From Planoprotostelium fungivorum (lineage: Eukaryota > Evosea > Variosea > Cavosteliida > Cavosteliaceae): 20,213 nucleotides of DNA. Position numbers and translations under genes: made by a program. Positions 1,377 through 19,270 of this stretch are shown here, piece after piece; position 1 is the first letter of the stretch, and every line of letters starts with the position of its first letter. The notes beneath the pieces are model-generated. The model searched no databases and was not told the DNA's origin. It worked only from the letters and a program-made list of their open reading frames with translations. The stretch is from contig MDYQ01000801.1 of NCBI GenBank assembly GCA_003024175.1, positions 1 through 20,213 of the forward strand, written 5' to 3'.

Positions 1377-2822
1377 ATGGCGGATAACCAAAAGAAGCTG
1401 AAGAGAAAAAGAGAGCAGGAAGGAGAAGAGGAGGATAAAGTTGACAACAAGAAGAAAGACCACAACAAGTATAGGAGGGAAAAACGTGTGTCATGAGCAT
1501 CAATCACAAACTGATGTAACGTTAGCATGGGACACAGATGACATTGACCACTGGAAAATCGATAAGTTCGAGAAGGGTGACATGAGATCGAACCTTACCG
1601 AGGAGAGCAGTTATGCCACATTATTCCCTCAACACAGAGAAAAGTGAGAAATATAAGCATCTTCTTCTCTGATACAGCTCATAGATACCTGCAACAGATC
1701 TGGCCTCTAGTTACGGAAAAACTCCTGAAAGAGCACGGAATCAATCCAGAATTGAACTTGGTGGAGGGAAGTATGACCGTTAGAACTACTCGAAAGACTT
1801 GGGATCCTTATATGATCTTGAAGGTACGACGCTCCTTCGTGCCATAATTGACACTCTCTAACAGGCCAAGGATATGATCAAAGTATTAGCCAGAGGAGTC
1901 CCATACCAGCAGGCAGTCAACTGTCTGAACGACAACGTTTTCGTCGATATCATCAAGATCAGCGGCTTCACTCGCAACACGGACACATTCACCAAGAGAA
2001 GACAACGACTCCTCGGTGCAGAGGGCACCACATTGAAGGTACGTCTCCTCCACTGATCGTCCTCACACCACTCAGGCTCTGGAACTCCTGTCAGAATGCT
2101 ACGTTCTGGTGCAAGGAAAGACAGGTGAGGGACAGTGGATGTGATGGACACTGAGATGGACAGTGGTGTCGATGGGACCTCACAAGGGAGTGAAGATCGT
2201 GAGGCAGGTGGTGGAGGACTGCATGAAGAACATCCACCCCATCTACAACATCAAAACTCTCATGATCAAGAGAGAACTGGCCAAGGACGAGAAGATGAAG
2301 GAGCAGACTTGGGATCGTTTCCTTCCCAACTTCAAGAAGACGAGGAGCAACAGGAAGGCGAAGAAGGAAGAGAAGAAGGAGAAGAAGGAGTACAACCCCT
2401 TCCCTCCCGAGATGCCCATGAGCGAGAAGGATAAGGCCATCGCATCGGGTAAGTCCTCCACTCTCACTGTCATCTCATCCTCACAGGTGAATACTTTGCC
2501 ACCACCGATGGAAGTGTGAGAGGAAACAAGAGAGACAAGCAGTGGAAGAAGATGAGAGCCGAGGAGCGTGATGAGGAAGAAGAAGGAGAAGAGAAGAGCG
2601 GAGTGACAGAGAGCAAGGGAGAGGTGAGGATTTGAAGCAGGAGGAGGACTCACAGTAGAAGGATGCGGACAGCAAGATGAGGGACAACATCATCGAGAAC
2701 ATCGTGAGTGCATGTATGAGATGAACATCACTGACCGTGTTTAGAAGAAGAGGAAGTCGGAGGGAAAGACGAACAAGAGCAAGGATGCGTCACACCTTGT
2801 CTTGAAGAAGCCCAAAAAGTGA
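1377..2822 (+). CDS. KRR1: KRR1, small-subunit processome KH-domain protein
   Basis: KRR1 is a nucleolar RNA-binding protein needed for 18S rRNA processing and 40S assembly. Nine exons give a 377-residue protein: 1377-1485, 1526-1643, 1685-1823, 1865-2038, 2076-2124, 2164-2448, 2487-2623, 2659-2703, 2745-2822. All eight introns are 35-41 nt, GT-AG, and keep frame. Family motifs in order: [84 protein letters not shown] and [10 protein letters not shown], then FPPEMP and GEYF. The first exon is Lys/Glu-rich, and the C-terminus is a Lys-rich tail ending KKPKK, as in the family. The ATG at 1377 is the first in frame, and the length is close to other KRR1 proteins. The gene converges on the PDHX-like gene with 77 bp between stop codons. 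Confidence 0.97.
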
Positions 2823-2899: not shown

Positions 2900-4131
2900 T
2901 TATAGTAGAGAGTGGGGGTGAGAGAGGTATGTTGATAGCTGATCTAAAAATTGTGCTGCTGAATGTTCCTGGATGACACGAGTGTCGTACGATAGCGTGA
3001 CTGTCATGACAGTGCTCAATCCCCTGACACATTCAATTTGAAGAAGAGAAACTCTTTACTCACAGCTCTCCTGTCAACTCGTGGATGAAGGGTGTAGGTT
3101 TACCTGTACCAACCGCGAGGATGGCCCCCTGTGGAGGGTTGATGACAGCAGAGAAGGCATCGATGTGAAACATTCCCAAGTTGGATATGCTGAAGGTTCC
3201 TCCCTGGAACTCCTCGGGCTTCAGTTTGTTCTCTCTGGCCCTCTTGGCCAGTTCCTCGTTGGGGTCAGTGGAATGAGTACAAGGCCACTCACTTGAACTT
3301 CCGTTGCAATGTCGGGGAGAGCCTTGTACTGGGCGCTCTTGACGATGGGTGTGATCAGACCTCCTTCTGTGGCCACCGCAACAGAGATGTCAGCGTTGTT
3401 TCTATTCTCTACGATCTCTTCTCGCTTCACATCCCAGCTCGAGTTGACCTGCCTCTCGTCACTCTTGTGCCATTCAAAGGATTTACCTCTGGAACGGACA
3501 ATAAAGCGAGAGCCGATCCCTTGATCAAAAAGTCGTTGACTGACACCTTCACTTTTCCATTGGCTGCAGGATTGAGTATCAAGATGAACGCGATATGGAT
3601 TTACCATTGATGGTGGTCCTCAAAGCTAAGAGCTTGTCTATCTTGATGTCAGCAGTCATATAGCCGTGAGGGACGGTAGATTTGGAGAGAGTGAGTCGCT
3701 TGGCAATCACTTTCCTGACGTTTGAATTGGCAATCTCGTCATATGAGGCACCTAATCTCTTTTTCAGATCGACGCTGATGGAGCGAGTCAGACTAACCCG
3801 CTGTTTGAGAACTCTTTGTAGGTGCATTGTTCACTGGTGCTTTCTTGGCTGCCTCTGGTTTAGGTTGAGCTTTTCCTCCTTTCGCAATGAATTGAAGGAC
3901 GTCCCCTTTCAAGACGATGCCATGTTTCCCTGTTCCAGACACAGAGTCCAGAGGTAAATGATGGCGTAAGAGTACTGCTCTCGCTGATGGTGACAACCTC
4001 ACAGTCTCTCCTTCAAAAATTCCATCAGGAATTAAAGAAAGGGAAGAATCACCTGCTGCTGAAGAAAACGATCGGTAGGTGGAGAATGAAGGTTGTCGAT
4101 TCAGACAACGCAAGACGCTCGAGGCCATCAT
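2900..4131 (-). CDS. PDHX-like E3-binding protein: E2 fold, no lipoyl domain, catalytic motif lost
   Basis: Six exons: 4131-3798, 3751-3605, 3563-3487, 3448-3293, 3254-3064, 3023-2900; introns 38-46 nt; 342 residues. Residues 1-30 look like a mitochondrial presequence (Arg/Ser-rich, few acids). Residues 47-82 are a peripheral subunit-binding domain ([18 protein letters not shown], then [14 protein letters not shown]), which docks E3. The rest is the acyltransferase fold ([60 protein letters not shown]). Two departures from true E2 are visible: nothing resembling a lipoyl domain (DKA motif) precedes the binding domain, and the terminal catalytic motif DHRxxDG reads DTRVIQE, so the active-site His is Thr. 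In PDHX/E3BP the catalytic His is also lost, so a structural role in holding E3 on the pyruvate dehydrogenase core is inferred. Start 4131 or 4128 (two adjacent ATGs). Confidence 0.9.
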
Positions 4132-4219
4132 CTTGAAACCGATGTGTGATCTCGACTTTTTTTGTGGCCCAATACAACCAGCCCCGACAAGAAGGGTGGG
4201 ACTTGTCCCTCCGAGGTCG
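4132..4219. promoter_or_regulatory. 88-bp divergent promoter between the PDHX-like and MRH receptor-like genes
   Basis: The two ATGs point away from each other with 88 bp between them, so both genes probably use one compact bidirectional promoter. A run of seven T (about 4156-4162) is the only notable feature. Upstream in-frame codons exist for the minus gene, so its start could be a little earlier. Confidence 0.4.
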
Positions 4220-5141
4220 ATGGCAAACACAACGATGGGCTGGAGAGCATTGGTCCTATTCATCTGTTTCTCTGGAGTCCAATCAGTGTGGCCCAAAGAT
4301 TGTATTTTCACCAACACGGAGAATGATCGGGTCTACGATTTGAAACCGATGAAGACTTCACAAGTGATTAACCACACTTCTAATGGTTCTGGTTGATTAA
4401 GGATTACGTCTACTCTGATCAAACGCGAGATAGCTATCGATTCAATTTTTGTCAGAACATACTTCAGCCTGGGTCATGACCGCAAGACTGCACAGCTTGT
4501 TTGACCCCATAAGAGGAGTTCAATGCCTCATGCGAGACTTGTCCATCACCATCACCGAACGTGAGCTTTGCCGTTGTCCACTTCTGACAAACAGCAGTGC
4601 GCCTGGCAGATGGAACAACTACAGATGGGTTTGTGATCGAATCCGCGGCCAACATCCAAGGTCCTATCCCTGCATCTCTCAATGTATGAGTCGTATCGCT
4701 CCTTCACTTCTCATCATCTTAGCACTTTGAATGTCTTCTGTAACCTACAAACACCACTCCCTGGTGTAATCAATTACGATGGGTTCATTGGCCCCTACGA
4801 TTACCACACCTTCAACATGACATCTTCAGCTGCATGTGGTCGAGCGTTGGAATCCTCATCTTCCAGTCTCGGTGTTGGTTCTATCTTGTGTATCATGTGA
4901 GAACAGTCTTTCATATTGGTATTCATTGAGTCATAGATTCGTAAGCGCTTTAGCAGCGTATCTGGTGATTGGAATCATCGTAGTAAGATGGAGGAGCAAG
5001 GAGTTTGGACTACCGAACAAAGAGCTCTGGTTTGGAACGGGATCTCTAATCAAGGTAGATAGAAACGTCTCCATTAGAGTTGACAAACTGCAGGATGGTT
5101 TTAATTTCACGGTGAACAAAGGTAAAGGCTTGGTGAAATGA
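4220..5141 (+). CDS. Mannose-6-phosphate-receptor-like type I membrane protein (MRH domain)
   Basis: Residues 1-24 form a signal peptide (MGWRALVLFICFSGVQSVW core). An MRH-type lumenal domain follows: DCIFTNTENDRVYDLKPM (the family's C...YDLs.L start), SYRFNFCQN (Y.FNvC), later STLNVFCNL and YDYHTFNMTSSAACG (the closing Cys pair region). Then comes a membrane span (SILCIIFVSALAAYLVIGII) and a short tail with PNKELWFGTGSLIKDGFNF, matching the cytosolic P..fW..lP.lvkDG end of cation-dependent mannose-6-phosphate receptors. Secure introns: 4364-4401, 4897-4936, 5055-5093. Middle exons (about 4440-4720) are tentative; I favour introns near 4472-4512, 4550-4583 and one ending before the SYRSFTSHH segment. 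Likely role: sorting of lysosomal proteins between Golgi and endosomes. Whether it binds mannose 6-phosphate cannot be told; an Mrl1-like receptor is the alternative. Confidence 0.75.
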
Positions 5142-8516: not shown

Positions 8517-10026
8517 TCATCGAACGACCTTCATCTTTCCCTGTCTCTTCTTCATCTCCTTCGCCTTCAACTTCTCCTCATAAGCAGCCGCCGCTTCGCT
8601 GCTCATGGCTTGCTTCTTCTGCTGAATCTTCTCCAACTTCTTCTGCTGTGCGGCCTATTCGAGTCAGTGATCTTCTCGTTTCCTCCTCACCTCTTGTCTC
8701 TCCGCTTGTGTTGCCTTGAACTGCTCTTCTGCTACCTTGTTCCTGTGCTTGACAACTCTGCTCTTTGCTACCTTGCTCAGACGGAAAGCGGCCAGAGTGT
8801 CGATGAAGCGGAGGACCGTCTTGTACAGAGCGTCTGCTTCTTCTACTTTGTCGGGGCTCACTCGTAAGACGATGCGAAGAGACTTCTTACTGCGAGAGAT
8901 CAGCTGGAACAAGAGTGGATGTCTCACTAGGAATCAGAGGAGATGGACTGATCACTGTAGTGGAGACTGATGAAGTTCTTCTCGTATTTAGCCAGAACTG
9001 TACTCAACTGACCGTATCAGTATGAGAGATGACAGATCGGATCACCTCTTCGGGGATGAGTTCCGATGTGATATCGTCTGATTCAGTGATGGCCACCAAA
9101 TTCTTGCCAAAAGGCTGAGAGTTCGTGGCGTACGTCTTCTGTGAAAGGGAGTCAGAACAGAAGGAGAGGGAACTCTTACTATGTCCTCGTTGTTTCTTCT
9201 AAACTTCTTCTCTTCCTTCTTGTGTACCAAAGCAAAGACGAAAGCCTCTGTGACCTCATCGTTCATCAAGATATCGAACGTCTGTGAGAGTCAACCAAAT
9301 GAGAGTGAATAAAAGACGATACGTACCACCGTGTCAGAAGTGGGGAATACGAGGTCATACAACAGAGCCAAGACATCATCTCTCTTTCTCAACTGAAAGA
9401 ACGTCAGAAGATGCTCGAGGTGGTGTTTCACACCGATAGAGTGGCCTGAAGTCCCCAACAGTTAACCCTTCCGGTAGCTTTCACGCGGTAGGTACTGCTG
9501 TCCTCTCTGACGACTGTGTTTCCTTTGTCAGCCTCTCCACACTTGGAAAAGTTGACTTTGAGCTCGCGGTAGATAATGTCTGCCCATTTCTGTGCGATTG
9601 CGTCATTGCGGTGTTTGCCTAGATAATGGTTGGCAACATATCCAAGGATGAGTGTTAGGTAGAAGGCCTCCAGGTAGTAGCTGATCTTTACTTCTTTGGG
9701 AGGTTCAACTGGACATATCAGGAAACATTCGTCAAATTTACCACATTACCCTTCGTTGGAGCAATAGTATCGGACTCCTTTTTGGTGTCTGTGGAGGTAG
9801 AATGTGTATTGTCTAAATGTTCGAATCCAACAAACTCCTCTTCATCGTACTGCTCATCTCCTGTGGGTGTTTGGGATAGTGTCTCATGATGGCTAGGTTG
9901 TCCCTTTCCATCCATTTGGAAGGGCTTCTCAGTCTCGATGACTTCATCATCCAGATCGTCGACTGCGAAAGAGAAAGGAATGCAGATGCAGAGAAGGAGG
10001 ATAACTAAGAACGTAGACTGTCTCAT
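8517..10026 (-). CDS. CCDC47: CCDC47, ER membrane protein of the PAT insertase complex
   Basis: CCDC47 works with Asterix at the Sec61 translocon to insert multipass membrane proteins. Eight exons: 10026-9750, 9708-9434, 9392-9327, 9281-9180, 9138-9013, 8980-8956, 8926-8691, 8654-8517; 414 residues (human about 480). A signal peptide (MRQSTFLVILLLCICIPFSF) precedes an acidic lumenal region with DEEEFVGFEHL, like the DDEEFEGYE of animals. One membrane span follows (SYYLEAFYLTLILGYVANHY), then cytosolic motifs ATGRVNCWG, LRKRDDVLALLYDLV, FDILMNDEVTEAFVFAL, and a long Lys/Glu/Gln coiled coil ending KKRQGKMKVVR. The intron at 8955-8927 (29 nt) and the one at 9012-8981 are the least certain. A second ER insertion-quality factor, P5A-ATPase, lies in the same window. 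Confidence 0.93.
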
Positions 10027-10321: not shown

Positions 10322-13300
10322 TTACTCGTACTGAGCCAGTGCGTAGTATGCTCCTCTCTGTTTCCTCTTGTGCCTCACAATCAAGAATACGACCACTCCT
10401 ATGATGACCACTCCAGCAATAGATCCAATGACAATGCCAGCCACTTGTGGCTTCGTCAATGTTCCATGGCCATTCTGATCTAAGCTTGGCTCGGTTGTGC
10501 TTGTCGTTGGTTCAGATGTACTTGTCGTCGTCTCAGATGCGTTTGTCTCTGGTTCAGATGTGCTTGTCGTTGGCTCGGTTGAAGACTGCGCAGTTGTACC
10601 TGTGACACCATCCACAGACACAACTAGGATTTTGGGTAAGTTGTTCGTCTTGGCTGACTCGGCAAACTTGTCTTCTCCTCCACTCTTCTGCTGATCCACG
10701 GCTGCAATCAGTGCCTTCTTTGCCTCTGTTGCCTTCATCTTGCCATCGCTCAGCGTGATGACGCTCTTGACCTTCTGCACTCTCTTGCCAGACACGCTCT
10801 GACTTTCCCAGCTCTTCACTGTCACTGACTCAACTCCTGTCTGGATAACAGTTGCGACCAACTTGGGAAGATCTGCACGAGTGATGTCACCCACAAACGT
10901 CATCGTGACGTCCTGTCATCTGTCATTCACTTTTTCGCACATCTGTTCCTCACCTCAGTCGCCGATGTCGATATCCATCCAAAGAACTTGTGAGTCTCGT
11001 TGTAGATTGCATTTGCATCTCTCCAATCGTACACGTGAGGTAGTCTGTAGTCAGCCGGATAGAAGCTGAACTCCTCGGGCAACTCTTGTTCTTTCGACAA
11101 GAACAACTGTTTTGCATATCAGTCCTCATTCTCTTGGTAATTTCATTCTTACCTCTACAAAGGGTATCTGCATGTGGACATCAGCGGGCCATGCCTGTAA
11201 CACATCATCTCCTTCCATCTGATAATATTGCGAGACAAACTGTAAGTAGATATCGTTCGTGACAAAACCTGAAGTGTTCAGTGACTCGATCGAATGTTCT
11301 CGATCACCTCCAGGGAAGGTAGAATAGCTCATCTTCTCTTGTCCTGGTATTCCTCCCGTCACAACTGTTCTCACGTGCTCGTGCAGAGTGGATATCAACG
11401 TCGTGAACATGGCACAAGCTGATCCACAGAGACCGTCCGATAAGATGAGAATCTGGCACAGATGTCAATCACGGCGAGAGGATGAACGGACCTCATTGTA
11501 GTTCCTCTTCGTTCCGTTCCATATATTAGGATATTCCAGACACGATCGTTCAAAGTAGAAGCGAGACGAGTGAAGAGATGTCGAATTAGCACGCGTCACC
11601 TTCTTCACGTCAATCTTTCTTGCACACGTGTATGAGAGACTAGTCTATGCACTCACATTTGTAGGTGTCCACCAAGGGTGATCGGCTCCCTCTACTGACT
11701 CGTAACGATCCGGTCCGAAGAAATGGAAATCGTCGGGCTTCGTCATGTTCATCGACTTCTGCTGCATCCTCCAAGTCAAACTGGACCATTTGAAATCGAA
11801 GATCATGCGTGGGGGAGGTGTGGCCTGTATCATGTCAGTGTCACAAGATCCTCGGATGATGAGTTCACCAGGTAATTGATCAGCTGCATAGCCTCGCAGA
11901 CGCGACCTCCTCCGTTGCCAGACACATCGATGATCAGTTTCTTGTGCGTGTGTTGTGGCAGCGTCTGGTTCAGTTGTGTATTCACTTCAACATTGAAAGA
12001 GGGAATCTTGATGACGAGAGTGTCATCGTTCATCTCCTTCACAGACACCTGTACCTTTGTCAACACACCATCGTGATCGTAATGATCATCAACGCACGTC
12101 TTGGTTTCCTAGTAAAACGTCTACTTGTCTCTTCTTCATCCCAAACACACTCGATTGTTCCCCATTCGATTCGGTCTCTCCTCTCTTCATGAATCCACTC
12201 AGTTGGTCACACTGAGCCAGATCCCCTGCACTCTTCAATCTCCTCTCCCATCCACACACTCACCCGCGATGATTGTCAACCATGGGAAGGTGAAAGTCTT
12301 ATGGTCTTCCATTTCCAGCGTCACGTTCTCTGGAAAGCCTCCTGTCGTACCCGATTGGAGCATACGAATGGTGAACATCTCCATGTTGAAGATCTGATTG
12401 AAGTTGACCGAGTCATCTGCTGGTGTTACGGTTGACTATGCAGGAGTGACTCACCTTTCGAATAAGCTGGATGAGATCTGGCAAAGTCGATCAGATGCTC
12501 TGTCGCATCTCTACCGTTGATCTTAAGAATCCTCTTGCCGACGTAAGTCCCAAACTGGAACCTTTTCAGTCTCAAATATGACCCACGCTCTCACCTCTGT
12601 CATGTTCCAGAATGGGACCTTGGGTATCATGGACATCTTACCATCGAAGAAAGCTTCCCTCAGATAGATCTCTGGGAAGTCTCCCACGGCTGTCAGGTTG
12701 AACGGTTGAGCTACGATACCATTGAAACAATTTGGCTTGACGAATTGGGTGTGGGCGTCGGCCAGAGGAGCAGTGACTTCATCAGTGATGCTCTGATAGA
12801 AAGAGAAGGCTCCGACTGTGCTGTCGTTCGCTCTGCTCCTCAGCTTCTCGATCGCAGCGTTGATGTCGTGGCTGTACCTCATCATCACGTGTGGTGACAT
12901 CTCAACTCACTCTAATTTTCTCAATGGTGGCTGATCGGGTGTGTTCTTCACCAGATCAGAGAAGGGGTACATATCCATCATTCTCTTCACGTTGTCTAAC
13001 ACCAACCGCTTCTTCAATTCACTCAGTGGTATCTGTCGATGTCAGGAAGATGTCGACGTGATGCCGTCACCATGTCGACACACTCCTTGTACTGTTCCAA
13101 GGTGGTGATGAAGATGTCGGACTGCTCGAACTGACACCTCTGGGGGAGCTCATAGGAGGGTAACTTGTCTAAAAGTTGATGATATAGTGTGTCCTTGTCC
13201 ATTTCGCGAGAGAACGAAAGGAAGTTCTCTGTATTAAGTGACTCGAACTGCGCGGGATCACTCCTGTTCTGTTGACCGTAGTACTATTTTGGTCAGGAAC

Positions 13301-15367
13301 GAAGTGGTCAGGAATGAAGTGATCGGACTGATCTCACCTCAGTCACTACCGTATCCATGGACACAGTGACGGGCCATCTGGCGGGAACTTCATATCCCGT
13401 AGCATTCCAGTGCTCTGCTTGTCTGAACATCTCCTCGTCTGTCATCACCATACCTGCCCCCTTGGTCACAATTTGTCACACGCACAAGTGATAGATGATC
13501 GATTCACTTACCACTAGCTGATGATGCGTAACGTATGAAACTGTATGTGGACTTGTCAGAGAAGATGGGAACATTGTGAGAAGATAGCTTCGCGGTTAAT
13601 ATCGCACAGGCAGACATGCATAGACCGTTCGATATGACGTACACCTATACACTTGTTACGTGATATTCACTTGAAGTTGTGATGAGGTTACCTTCTCGAA
13701 ATATGGCTTACGATCGATCCAGGGACTAGGTGCACACTTTCGCTTCCTCAGAGTCGAAAAATTGTTCGTCAAATTCGCTCGTGTCAACTGCGTCACGTCT
13801 CATCTACAACGCCATTGTAGATCATCTCACCTGCTCCACAGACCACACAGAAGAGCCGTCTGCAGTCTCCCACAGGTCATCACCCAGCATCACACCGTCT
13901 GATCCATTTCTTGCCTCAGCCAACTTCATCAACTGTAGAGTGTAGTTGGAATACACCATGTCTTGCCAGATCGGATCAGATGTTCCGGTCTACGATTCTA
14001 TCAGATACAAATGAAACGAGAGGAGAAGGATCACCAGATAGTCCAATAGATACTGAGCTTCGCAGATGGATCCCTTCATGTTGTCGATCACATCGATGAT
14101 GACGTTCTTGTATGTTTTGTTCTTCTCTTCGAAAAGTCTCATCACTTCGGCGTTGGTTCCGTTCTGCAAGTGAGGCAGTACCACAGCGATCGTCTTATGA
14201 TCTACCTCTCTTAACTGCAGCTGCGTCAAAATTTGACACACACACACAATATAAGTCACCTGGACAGATGATACAGGCTCGACAACTTGGTTCGTTGTAG
14301 ATGAGTGAGGGGCATCACAGTCGGACAGATTCCCTGTCCTGTGTGAGTCCATCGGTGGGTCGTCATTCATCACCGTTGATCTCAGCCACGAATGGAAAGT
14401 CGTACGTCTTTCCCTCTATGGTGAAGGTTAGACGTTGGTACGAAGAGAAGGGAAGCTGGTGACCATCACGAATAAAGCGAGTGTCGAGGAGATTTTTGGC
14501 TATGGTCAACATTCCATTGATCTGAGAGTCTGCATCACGATCAGATCGGATGATGGAATGCAGCATGACGTCTCACCAAGAGTGAAACCTGGAGTATCGG
14601 ATGGTAGAAGGTAGTTGGAATAATCCTCCATAGCTGGGTATCCTGCTAATCTTTCGATGGACTTGCCCTTTAATCCTCTGATCTGCTTCATGTCAGCACT
14701 GCCACTTTGTGAGGAGAGGAATAGTGCACCTGCTCTAAGATGGTATCATTACCAAACTCAGGCCAAGTCCGAACGTCTTTTACATAGAGGTTGCTAGTCG
14801 AGCCCATGATCATGGCGCCTTCCTTCTTCGCAACGATGAGCGGATGGTAGAAGGTGACGTCGAAACATTCTGGCAATCTGAACTTGACATTGGGATCCCT
14901 CAGTCGGCCAATGAGATCGCTCAGACGAGAATAGAAGGAGAAAGCTGTGTCGCCTTCGTACCTGTTATACCGAGCGATGGCCTCGAAGGCAGTCTCTATG
15001 TCGACCCTGAGTGATGTTTTAGGTGGGTTCTGGGGCAGTGTGTGACTCACGCCGATGCGTAGAGTGGTGTTGTGATTCCCTTGGCGAGGATGTCACGGAA
15101 CGGATAACTTCTCAACAGATTACGAGTGGTGTTGAACACTTTGCTCTTTGTCTCGGAGCTCAGGGTCGGCTATCGTCTCGTCAGCCAGTGATTTTCATCT
15201 ATCGGATATGGTGGAATACTCACAACTTGAATGCATTCGTAAACGGCTGCACCCTGTCCTGCAAACACTCTCTCTCCCTTTGTGAAATTACAGCCGACAG
15301 GAAGGTCATAGGCCGAGCAAGCGGTGAGACACAACGCAGTCAAGAGAAAGAGGTGACTCGCTCTCAT
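10322..15367 (-). CDS. Membrane-anchored protein with two fused S41-type peptidase modules (1357 residues)
   Basis: Twenty-three exons join without a frame break: 15367-15224, 15169-15051, 15006-14730, 14685-14577, 14529-14374, 14333-14260, 14220-14035, 13989-13831, 13787-13692, 13644-13512, 13453-13338, 13283-13071, 13032-12911, 12871-12595, 12554-12455, 12419-12264, 12225-12149, 12108-11869, 11824-11657, 11599-11492, 11452-11153, 11106-10954, 10912-10322. Layout: signal peptide (1-19), S41-like module 1 (about 25-560), module 2 (about 580-1160), a separate domain without recognised relatives, a Ser/Thr/Glu/Pro stalk, one membrane span (GIVIGSIAGVVIIGVVVFLI) and a 17-residue cytosolic tail ending AYYALAQYE. 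Presumed nucleophile Ser lies in NGLCMSACA (Ser451) and DGLCGSACA (Ser1021). Module 2 has LIIDVSGNGGG (896-906); module 1 has IIDVIDNMKG there (334-343), so module 1 may be impaired. The protein should face the cell exterior or a lysosomal lumen. Substrate unknown. Confidence 0.9.
10500..10600 (-). repeat. Repetitive Ser/Thr/Glu/Pro stalk coding region
   Basis: Within the last exon of the S41 gene a block of about 35 bp recurs imperfectly, encoding TTSTSEP-type units (STEPTTSTSEPETNAS, TTTSTSEPTTSTTEPS). Such stalks are usually O-glycosylated and hold an ectodomain off the membrane; length changes by repeat slippage are likely between strains. Confidence 0.7.
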
Positions 15368-16444: not shown

Positions 16445-19270
16445 CTACAGCTGGAACCTCTTGACCTTGGACACATACTTCAATATCTCTTCAAAGTTGG
16501 GTGTACCCAGTCCACTGACGGGATCCCTGAGAACATCAGCACCTCCACGAGACACGTCACGACTCACCATCCCTCGGTGGCGACAAATCCATAGAGGCAG
16601 CAGAGACCACCGTCACACCTGTTGTCACCGTGGGTGAGGTCATTGAAGGCCTTGGGGTATTCTCTGGCCATCTTGTACAGGAGAGGGTTGAGGAATCCCA
16701 ACTGTGTCTTTCCGTTCTGGAAGAGAACGTCGTTGATCAAATTGAAGAGTCCGGCAGTAGCTGGGCTGCTGGCGCTGGTTCCACTGACGGGGCTGTGGTT
16801 GAACTGATCGAAATAGACGTCGTAGTTGTTTCCATTGAAGGAGATATCGGGGTAGCCTCTGGACTGAGGGCTGAAGGACCAAGCGGGGGGAGCCTTTCTT
16901 CCGGCCTTGGTCAACCATGACTTGACGGCCTCTTGTTGGTATTCTAATCCCTTCTGGAAGTAGCTGTAACAATCAGCACATCGAAGGTAGAGGAAGAGAG
17001 GATACACGTAGAGGGACAATAGAAGAGGTGGATGACTGACCTGAAACCACCACCTCCCTCAAAGTTGGCGCCTTGGATGACATCAGAGGGGACTTCAGAG
17101 TCCACATTGACTCCATCCTTGGACACAAAATAGGTTGCTCCCACACTGTCCTCTTTCTTCAGTCATGTGTTCACGATATGGATGATGTGTGAATGAGAAT
17201 GAAGAGGCTGACTGACCTTGTGACATAAGGGCTGCTTCCGGGCCAGATGGGAGCAAAGATGTGACCGATGGTAGCAGGATCGACCTCGTAACCTGACACG
17301 TCCCATCCACCGAGATTGACAGACTGTAAATCAGAGCAGATGCACTTGCTCTGAAGTACTCCGTAGCTGGATCCAGTGGGGATTCCACAATCGGGGTTGG
17401 CCTTGGCCAGCGCTTGCGTGGCAGCTTGTTGCAGCTGTGATCCATCAGTCGATGTTACGCGATGGTAGTCAGGGCTGACTCACGTTGGGGTAGGTGTTCT
17501 GTGTGGCTTCATAGACTTGGTCGCACGCATCGTTGGTACCTCTTCCTGTGATGTAGGGAAGAGAGCAGCTCATGTTGGCCGTGGCATTCGATATGGTGAT
17601 GGCAGCACAGGCAGTGGGTCCATACATACCCTTCCATCCATCAGATCATCGTCACATCAATCATAGACAATGGATACCTTGACGTAGGGATCGATGGGGC
17701 AGTAGGGAGAAGGAGAACCATCATCACCAGAGGCGATGAAGATAGACACACCGGTGGCACCGAAGACCTGGAAGGCCGTGTTGGTACGGTTCACGTACTG
17801 AGGTCCACTGTATCCCAGCTGTCACTCTGTCAGTCACAGAAGAGAATGGAGATGAATGTGTGAGATATGAGAGGAAGAATGAATGTGTGAGATATGAGAG
17901 GATGAATGAATGTGTGAGATATGAGAGGAAGAATGAATGTGTGAGATATGAGAGGATGAATGAATGACCTTGGGGCAGTTGACAGTGGCCCAGAGACACT
18001 GATCGGTCTCGAACCAACCGTAAGAGATGGAGAAGACGGTGGGAACTCTCTCCAACTTGGAAGCGTCCATGAGAAACTGGAGGATCCAGAAGGTGTTGGG
18101 CTCCTGAAGGAACAACAGATCAGTTCCCTGTGACATGGCAGATATGTACCTACTCTATCAGATAGAAGCTGTACACTAGACTCACTGGACATCGAGGTCA
18201 CTCTCTACGTAGTCGGCGACCGATCCGTTACCGGCCATGCGGACGGTGTCGAACTTGGGTAGGTTGTACTTGGTCTTGAACGCCTGAAGAATGTGAGAGA
18301 CTGTAGAATAAGAGAATGTGAGAGACTGTAGAATAAGAGAATGTGAGAGACTGTAGAATAAGAGATGAGAAGCAAGAGAGGATAAGAGTACGGACGTCGA
18401 ATCCGGGTTGCTGGAAATCGTCGTTGAAAGCGGCGATACCGTTGAAGGTCTTCTTGCTCTTGGCCACTTGGTACTTCTCTGGGATGTTGTAAAACTTTCT
18501 CAGGAGCTCGGGGGTCACAGTCACTGTTGCGCGAGGGGATATCTCCCTGTTCCATTGTTTTAGACATCTCTTCATGATGGATGAAAGAGTCACCTTCTGG
18601 CGGTGATCTTACCGATGGTCTCTCTGTCTCCCAATTCAGTGATTCCAGCAACGAAATCAACGGCCTCAGAGACCTCTTCAGGGATGGTGATCTGTGTGGG
18701 GTAAACAGGGCAGTGATGAGCGGACGAACCTTTCCGTTGGCACGGACGAGAGATCTTCCAGTTACGTCGTTGGTGTGGGTGTAAAATTGAGCCTCGCCCA
18801 AGATCTGCTCTGCCACGGCGACGGTCGATCTGACCTGAGCACGTTAGATGACTGAGTACTAGGACGATGGGTACCTCGAAGCGGTCGGAGAGTCTCTGAA
18901 CGTCTGCCTCCGAGAAAGAGGTCAACCAGCCCTCGACGGCTTCCATGTGCTCCTCTTTGGGTGCAATGATGGACTCAGCCTCCTCGAGAGTCAAGAATTG
19001 TCCATATTCTGGGCTATCTGGGTTGCTCACAGAGAGGAACTTCTCCTCCAATGCAGCAAAGTTCTGTTGCCTTCAATCGTCAGTTGTTGATGCGAACGAA
19101 CCAGAGAGGACTCACTTGACAAAGACGACAAAGTTGATCTGTTGATTGGCTGGGGGAGTTGCTCCCAAAGACCAGCCACGAGGGGGTTCAGCTCTTCCTC
19201 CAACCTCGACTCGTAGAGCGTAGGATAGGAGAAGGGTGGATAGTAGTAGTAGTAAGACTCGTGTTGCCAT
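16445..19270 (-). CDS. Sedolisin / tripeptidyl-peptidase-1-like serine protease (S53) with Cys-rich insertion
   Basis: Thirteen exons: 19270-19116, 19070-18875, 18834-18730, 18691-18594, 18546-18396, 18283-18186, 18149-17969, 17818-17678, 17630-17484, 17434-17217, 17145-17041, 16963-16568, 16526-16445; 690 residues. Signal peptide (MATRVLLLLLSTLLLSYALR), then the pro-domain (SNPDSPEYGQFLTLEEAESI), then the catalytic domain. The S53 catalytic set is complete: Glu262 and Asp266 in VESDLDVQ, the oxyanion Asp360 in IASGDDG, Ser595 in SGTSAS, and calcium-site residues in DLTHGDNRC and GWDPVSGLG. It should be a self-activating, acid-active lysosomal or secreted peptidase. Between SGDDG and PGSSPYVTSVGATYF lie about 120 residues, far more than in human TPP1, with at least seven Cys. 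The protein exceeds TPP1 (about 563 residues) mainly through this insertion. Introns after exons 5 and 7 are lengthened by tandem repeats. Confidence 0.95.
17854..17961. repeat. Intronic minisatellite, four 27-bp units
   Basis: Four tandem units begin at 17854, 17881, 17908 and 17935. Each starts GAATGTGTGAGATATGAGAG. Units 1 and 3 end AAGAAT while 2 and 4 end ATGAAT, so the array is really two 54-bp dimers, which points to a recent duplication of a dimer. It fills the sedolisin intron 17968-17819 (150 nt against the usual 35-50). Confidence 0.95.
18290..18364. repeat. Intronic minisatellite, three identical 25-bp units
   Basis: Three identical units begin at 18290, 18315 and 18340; each starts AATGTGAGAGACTGTAGAAT. 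On the coding (minus) strand each carries TTATTCTACAG, a good 3' splice-site sequence, so the 112-nt sedolisin intron (18395-18284) contains three decoy acceptors before the true one (TTCTTCAG). Confidence 0.95.

Follow-up and report, generated by a model that had tools for sequence, protein, structure and literature searches.

Tandem S41 modules are known from vertebrate IRBP, as a preliminary description of the sequence analysed here had correctly stated; in IRBP three domain duplications took place, and the introns, present in domain 4 only, arose after the first of these (PMC10450429). A survey of fungal serine proteases presents many S41 proteins, an expansion in chytrids and a caspase-like report, and the word 'tandem' is used 0 times in its main text (PMC5567314). 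The stretch of DNA considered here, hereafter called the window, comprises 20,213 nucleotides (nt) of Planoprotostelium fungivorum (assembly GCA_003024175.1, contig MDYQ01000801.1, positions 1 to 20,213 of the forward strand) and contains, on the minus strand at 15367-10322, a gene for a protein with two related S41-type modules, hereafter called the S41 gene. From its sequence, the predicted product is read as a fused type I membrane protein in which a pseudoprotease and a protease share an anchor that is possibly cut, and this reading as a whole is considered rather probable. The protein consists, in order, of a signal peptide, module 1, module 2, a juxtamembrane (JM) domain, a Thr/Ser stalk, a transmembrane (TM) helix and a short tail, encoded as follows.

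15224..15367, minus strand: exon 1, with the start codon, the signal peptide MRASHLFLLTALCLTACSA (delimited by eye) and the first two conserved Cys of module 1; identified from the frame and a hydrophobic window at residue 6, and conserved in gene copy C197
13338..15169, minus strand: module 1, degenerate S41, residues 1-569 (together with exon 1 and part of exon 12); GT-AG kept in gene copies C197 and C126, BLASTP match to module 2
15169-15051, 15006-14730, 14682-14577, 14529-14374, 14333-14260, 14220-14035, 13989-13831, 13787-13692, 13644-13512 and 13453-13338, minus strand: exons 2-11, module 1
13071..13283, minus strand: exon 12, composite, encoding the C-terminus of module 1 and then the Cys-containing N-terminus of module 2; presumed seam, acceptor AG conserved in C126 and C197
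10954..13032, minus strand: module 2, S41, residues 570-1139 (together with part of exon 12); PF03572 match, motifs, GT-AG conserved
13032-12911, 12871-12595, 12554-12455, 12416-12264, 12225-12149, 12048-11869, 11824-11657, 11599-11492, 11452-11153 and 11106-10954, minus strand: exons 13-22, module 2
10601..10912, minus strand: JM domain in exon 23, residues 1140-1243, with Lys1182-Arg1183; recurs at other loci, strongly conserved in C197
10436..10600, minus strand: Ser/Thr/Glu/Pro-rich stalk (from sequence, limits approximate)
10322..10435, minus strand: TM helix IVIGSIAGVVIIGVVVFLI (from hydropathy), 17-residue tail RHKRKQRGAYYALAQYE with YYAL (YxxPhi), and the stop codon

The S41 gene and its two modules

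In its spliced reading the S41 gene has 23 exons encoding 1335 residues with no internal stop, and ends with TAA at 10324-10322. All 22 introns are GT-AG introns, 38-100 nt in length. The model was obtained by ab initio splicing, followed by manual reading and then by correction of acceptors from sites conserved in the gene copies C126 and C197, which replaced the draft borders of exon 4 (106 nt, not 109), exon 12 (213 nt) and exon 16 (153 nt, not 156); the ratios of nonsynonymous to synonymous substitution rates (dN/dS), the first tree and some residue tables were computed on the 1332-residue draft. Ab initio prediction gives the gene model moderate backing. Of the 21 exons in a first Viterbi run, 10 are exactly as in the final model, and the last exon agrees except for its printed end; a second run, for which the splice sites of the draft served as training data, predicted 28 exons, among them 16 of the 23 draft exons. 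An alternative intron of 40 nt after exon 17 (instead of 100 nt, adding 20 residues) was set aside; the single-module paralog C427 is modelled with splicing like the 100-nt version, and the stretch in question differs by 7 nt in length between gene copies.

The genome holds two further copies of the S41 gene, C126 (L001, C126:1-9500) and C197 (L002). The C197 copy retains GT-AG at 22 of 22 introns and encodes an uninterrupted protein of 1329 residues; compared with the window, its exons show four length changes, all in threes (+3, +3, -3 and -21), and in 14 of its 22 introns the difference in length is not divisible by 3. The C126 copy has 81.6 % DNA identity with the window and keeps 21 of 22 introns, exon 1 being absent at that place. 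The length of exon 23 varies between the gene copies. Between the window and C197, dN/dS was 0.20 for the whole gene, 0.22 for module 1 with the signal peptide (0.21 for its core), 0.25 for the linker exon 12, 0.17 for module 2, 0.08 for the JM domain and 0.30 for the stalk. Because C197 keeps all introns and the frame, C126 keeps all introns but one, and dN/dS is low, the gene and its frame are real and under selection, which bears out the single 23-exon frame from signal peptide to C-terminal anchor that had been proposed earlier.

Identity between the C126 and C197 copies is 97.1 % in a region of 5.1 kb, and the fetched flanks outside this region do not match; the two may be recent duplicates, alleles or assembly duplicates. 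A run of 594 bases (exons 2, 3 and part of 4) is identical between C126 and C13 (L006, C13:91000-97500), with no match beyond it, and C13 also carries an exon 1. This copy may therefore have been split by an assembly break, a misjoin or a real rearrangement.

The alignment of the two modules (BLASTP E 1e-31) spans the greater part of both, and 129 of 541 positions (24 %) are identical. Module 2 matched the Pfam family PF03572 (Peptidase_S41) with 27.8-27.9 bits, above the gathering cut-off of 24, and scored 26.2-26.8 bits with PF23658 (PDZ_CPAF_rel, cut-off 27), which all three family members match at E 0.1 or better, whereas for module 1 no S41 match was listed at a maximum E of 10 and no PDZ_CPAF_rel match was found. 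A PDB sequence search gave 0 matches with module 1, and the best match with module 2 had an E of only 0.41; a profile of module 2 and its two single-module paralogs matched bacterial tail-specific proteases in PDB over approximately 75 residues (E 2.7e-4). The family alignment picked out 144 stretches in bacterial and archaeal genomes, 0 of which were confirmed.

In module 2 the motifs are His674 (in DAHT), GNGGG at 880-884 and Ser999 in DGLCGSAC. The presumed nucleophile Ser999 is invariant with the paralogs C427 and C12, and the DAHT His is present in 4 of 4 aligned non-degenerate modules; we tentatively take it to be the catalytic His from the position of its motif and by analogy with CPAF, in which the catalytic His lies upstream of the Ser. 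In module 1 the corresponding His (PLADAHT) is replaced by Asn127 and GNGGG by DNMKG in all three gene copies, and the presumed nucleophile Ser450 is retained, 549 residues from Ser999 and not 570 as given earlier. Of the 114 positions that do not vary among C427, C12 and module 2 from two gene copies, module 1 keeps 47, among them all 7 of the invariant Cys. The two modules are thus related and of S41 type, as had been described, but to speak of two peptidase modules passes over the loss of the His and GNGGG in module 1 and its lack of a Pfam S41 match. Because it is still constrained in spite of these losses, module 1 is probably a conserved, functional pseudoprotease. Module 2 is probably a working serine protease of the CPAF-like S41 branch, acting via Ser999 and His674.

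The membrane anchor and the recurrent juxtamembrane domain

The C-terminal membrane anchor of the preliminary description is supported by a TM helix, whose hydropathy of 3.08 is that of the highest window in the protein, followed by the short tail. The stalk ahead of the helix is encoded in part by a 21-nt tandem repeat at 10496-10573 (TRF period 21, 3.7 copies). Searches with the JM domain stayed under the cut-off in Pfam and NCBIfam and gave nothing in PDB with an E below 0.6. Sub-threshold Pfam matches of the whole exon 23 (Rifin, 22.5 bits vs 32; DUF4690, 22.0 vs 30.7) are taken as reflecting the composition of stalk and TM helix, because the JM domain alone has DUF2505 as its best match (E 0.028). 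The domain had been described as novel, which holds as far as these databases are concerned, but it is not peculiar to this protein, since it was found at 12 other loci (L007-L013, L016-L020), at 10 of which the same exon continues with a stalk or spacer and a TM helix. In predicted genes the domain follows a GH81 glucanase (PF17652, E 1.8e-69) or a GDA1/CD39 apyrase (PF01150, E 1.2e-63), and in others it comes after two mucin-like stretches or repeat proteins.

Many of the 47 listed matches of exon 23 cover the stalk and TM helix only. Nine loci (L007-L015) were fetched first; the alignment consisted of the window and seven of these, without L014 (no JM profile match) and L015 (TM end only). 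C31, which scores the same as C73, and the C126 and C197 copies were not counted apart. The JM sequences were read from open exon frames, the gene predictions cutting into the domain in L007 and L012. Internal repeats of L010, L012 and L013 weakly resemble the JM domain.

Among the eight aligned JM domains, seven of which are 24-41 % identical to the first, the only invariant columns are a Lys, an Arg and one Phe. In five further domains that had been held out, Lys-Arg is present in three and Arg alone in two, giving Lys-Arg in 11 of 13 domains and Arg in 13 of 13. Lys-Arg is a kexin-type site, and one genomic place encodes a proprotein-convertase P domain. In the window protein Lys1182-Arg1183 adjoins a beta-hairpin turn predicted with low confidence (single-sequence model; predicted local distance difference test, pLDDT, 52). 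The chances are about even that the pair is purely structural and the domain an uncleaved spacer: the Arg, which is more constant than the Lys, speaks for this, and the near absence of other invariant columns in the alignment, together with the position of the pair next to the predicted turn, speaks against it.

Tails with a YxxPhi motif sort proteins to endosomes and lysosomes. The motif is present in 8 of 11 tails of JM proteins, compared with a mean of 1.7, and never 8, in shuffled tails (20,000 trials), and in 6 of these 8 the first YxxPhi Tyr lies 9-12 residues past the post-helix cut. The start of each tail, past the hydrophobic helix, was set by eye, and some tails come from close relatives (L010, L017) and are not independent; L018 and L019, with no TM helix in the exon read, are outside the count.

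The JM domain is read as a shared, possibly processed anchor of the cell surface or of endolysosomal membranes. More tentatively, and less likely than not, it may represent a new family of processed anchors, with a kexin-type Lys-Arg, a mucin-like stalk, a TM helix and YxxPhi, carried by unrelated digestive ectodomains (the pseudoprotease-protease pair, a GH81 beta-1,3-glucanase and a CD39 apyrase). If so, the organism would possess a set of membrane-bound digestive proteins that are released by cleavage, either in the food vacuole or extracellularly. The recurrent anchor domain, with its nearly invariant Lys-Arg, provides a testable account of how a protist may mount and release several enzymes by one cassette. 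The unclassified anchor domain is more novel than the protease.

Origin of the module pair and alternative readings

When the modules are aligned by sequence only, each of the 10 introns in module 2 shares its column and phase with an intron in module 1; introns placed at random coincided, within 3 columns, 0.59 times on average and at most 4 times (10,000 trials). Three introns that were 1, 1 and 6 columns off under the draft borders lined up once these had been corrected by means of the other gene copies. The paired exon lengths noted earlier stand for 119/122, 277/277, 74/77, 159/168 and 96/108 nt, but 109/100 is corrected to 106/100 and 156/156 to 156/153; further pairs are 186/180 and 133+116 vs 300, one intron being absent from module 2, which is taken to have lost it. 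The introns were thus copied together with the exons, as had been proposed.

Two single-module paralogs, predicted to be secreted, were used for comparison, C427 (L003 1947-4204, minus strand; 584 residues, no anchor) and C12 (L004 1261-3569, minus strand; 572 residues), both with a signal peptide identified by eye. Their models were built with module 2 as the query and the splice weights of the window gene, and hence were not blind. In C427 one proposed intron (L003 3650-3603) was removed by hand, the exon of 319 nt being open through it, and the proposed last intron was replaced by continuous reading to the stop. So modelled, C427 has 11 of 11 introns in common with module 1, including 10 of 10 of module 2; with the removed intron kept it would share 11 of 12, and the model rests on one gene copy. 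C12 shares 3 of its own 10. Intron turnover within the S41 family is therefore uneven, as judged from these models. A further S41 match (PF03572, E 3.6e-8) was found at L005 (C387:253500-257500); with module 2 as the query it does not come up below E 0.8. Identical matches 751 nt apart suggest an internal repeat there.

Since the single-module C427 has the same 11 introns, these are older than the pair. For the same reason the intron match does not prove an intragenic duplication, as the preliminary description had concluded, and cannot tell internal copying from tandem duplication and fusion; tandem gene duplication with fusion fits the gene structures as well as internal copying does. Under all three models the best unrooted tree grouped the two modules together, apart from C427 and C12, and the alternative trees received values of 0.02-0.035 in the approximately unbiased (AU) test with VT+G4 and LG+G4. 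That the module was copied inside an existing gene is a possibility to which we give roughly one chance in three; the tree and the 10 introns of module 2 common to module 1 agree with it, but the tree fits fusion alike, and the introns, being present also in C427, cannot discriminate.

In the history that we propose, a secreted single-module S41 gene with 11 introns would have been duplicated in tandem, and the copies would have become one gene when the stop codon of the first and the signal peptide of the second were lost, with exon 12 as the seam. Such an exon, with the ends of both modules and without a second signal peptide, is as expected from fused tandem copies. Module 1 would then have lost the catalytic His and the glycine loop and kept its cysteines under purifying selection, and would probably serve module 2, which is probably the working protease, as a scaffold or as a substrate-binding or regulatory pseudoprotease. 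The cassette of JM domain, stalk, TM helix and tail would carry the protein to the cell surface or, via YxxPhi, to endolysosomal or food-vacuole membranes, and a kexin-type protease may cut at the Lys-Arg in the JM domain, which would release or loosen the ectodomain.

It appears improbable that both modules are non-enzymatic and that the protein binds or carries a ligand as IRBP does. The lack of catalytic motifs in module 1 would agree with this, as would the precedent of IRBP, in which tandem S41 modules lost the active-site serine and became retinoid carriers (PMC10450429), but the DAHT, GNGGG and Ser motifs of both single-module paralogs (DNGGG in C12) are present in module 2 as well, and the sequence of module 2 is constrained. 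Two neighbouring single-module genes that only appear to be fused, a reading to which the separate genes C427 and C12 with their own signal peptides lend some colour, are very improbable and were rejected, since a separate start codon and signal peptide before module 2, named earlier as the sign of two genes, were looked for and not found (there is no hydrophobic window ahead of module 2, and the sole Met of exon 12 before the first Cys of module 2 is Thr in C197), and since exon 12 holds the ends of both modules in one constrained frame with splice sites conserved in two other gene copies.

Several observations weigh against the preferred reading of a fused, anchored pseudoprotease-protease pair. 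The PF23658 score of module 2 is just under the cut-off, and the catalytic His is assigned from the position of its motif and the analogy with CPAF. The tree is unrooted and contains six sequences, and the site-heterogeneous model LG+C20+G4 does not reject the alternative trees (AU 0.09). For the anchor, dN/dS of the TM helix and tail is 0.54, on few changes (8 and 5), the structure model of the JM domain is poor, and its link to GH81 and CD39 comes from gene predictions. The Lys of the Lys-Arg pair is missing from 2 of the 5 held-out domains, and 3 of the 11 tails, including the GH81 one, are without YxxPhi. Should the reading hold, the gene would be a clean natural case in which a protease and its own degenerate copy have stayed together in one chain, the introns recording the event.

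Neighbouring genes and comparison with known systems

Upstream of the S41 gene, a pro-kumamolisin activation domain is encoded at 18590-19072 (minus strand), likely the start of a sedolisin-type gene, and tandem repeats with units of 25 and 27 nt, at 18288-18365 and 17852-17966, presumably lie within introns of that gene. Other genes in the window are listed below.

9428-9745, minus strand: CCDC47
3221-4332, minus strand: 2-oxoacid dehydrogenase acyltransferase
2145-2519, plus strand: KRR1-like KH protein

IRBP (RBP3) has four domains and is soluble, whereas the protein described here has two modules, a TM helix and a tail. Its introns also differ in age from those of IRBP, being earlier than the duplication and shared by both modules, instead of having arisen after the first duplication.

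The S41 protein has in common with the CPAF-like S41 peptidases of fungi and other eukaryotes (PF03572 with PF23658) the S41 core, a putative CPAF-like PDZ region and the signal peptide, and module 2 and both single-module paralogs resemble this type. To our knowledge, the CPAF-like eukaryotic S41 peptidases known so far are single-module proteins, and a limited literature search (titles and abstract openings) found no tandem or membrane-anchored CPAF-like S41 protein; the S41 gene differs in having two modules, one of them degenerate, fused and anchored.

The anchor resembles two further systems. SEA-type juxtamembrane domains and Notch-like dibasic processing involve a small juxtamembrane domain with a cleavage site; the JM domain is likewise small and probably alpha/beta, with a candidate cleavage site by a hairpin turn, but it has no Pfam sequence match above cut-off and its structure model is of low confidence. 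LAMP-type lysosomal membrane proteins have many N-glycosylation sequons, one TM helix and a short YxxPhi tail near the membrane, and the S41 protein, with 24 sequons in its draft version, one TM helix and a short membrane-near YxxPhi tail, has the same layout, but differs in that its ectodomain is, judging by sequence, an enzyme.

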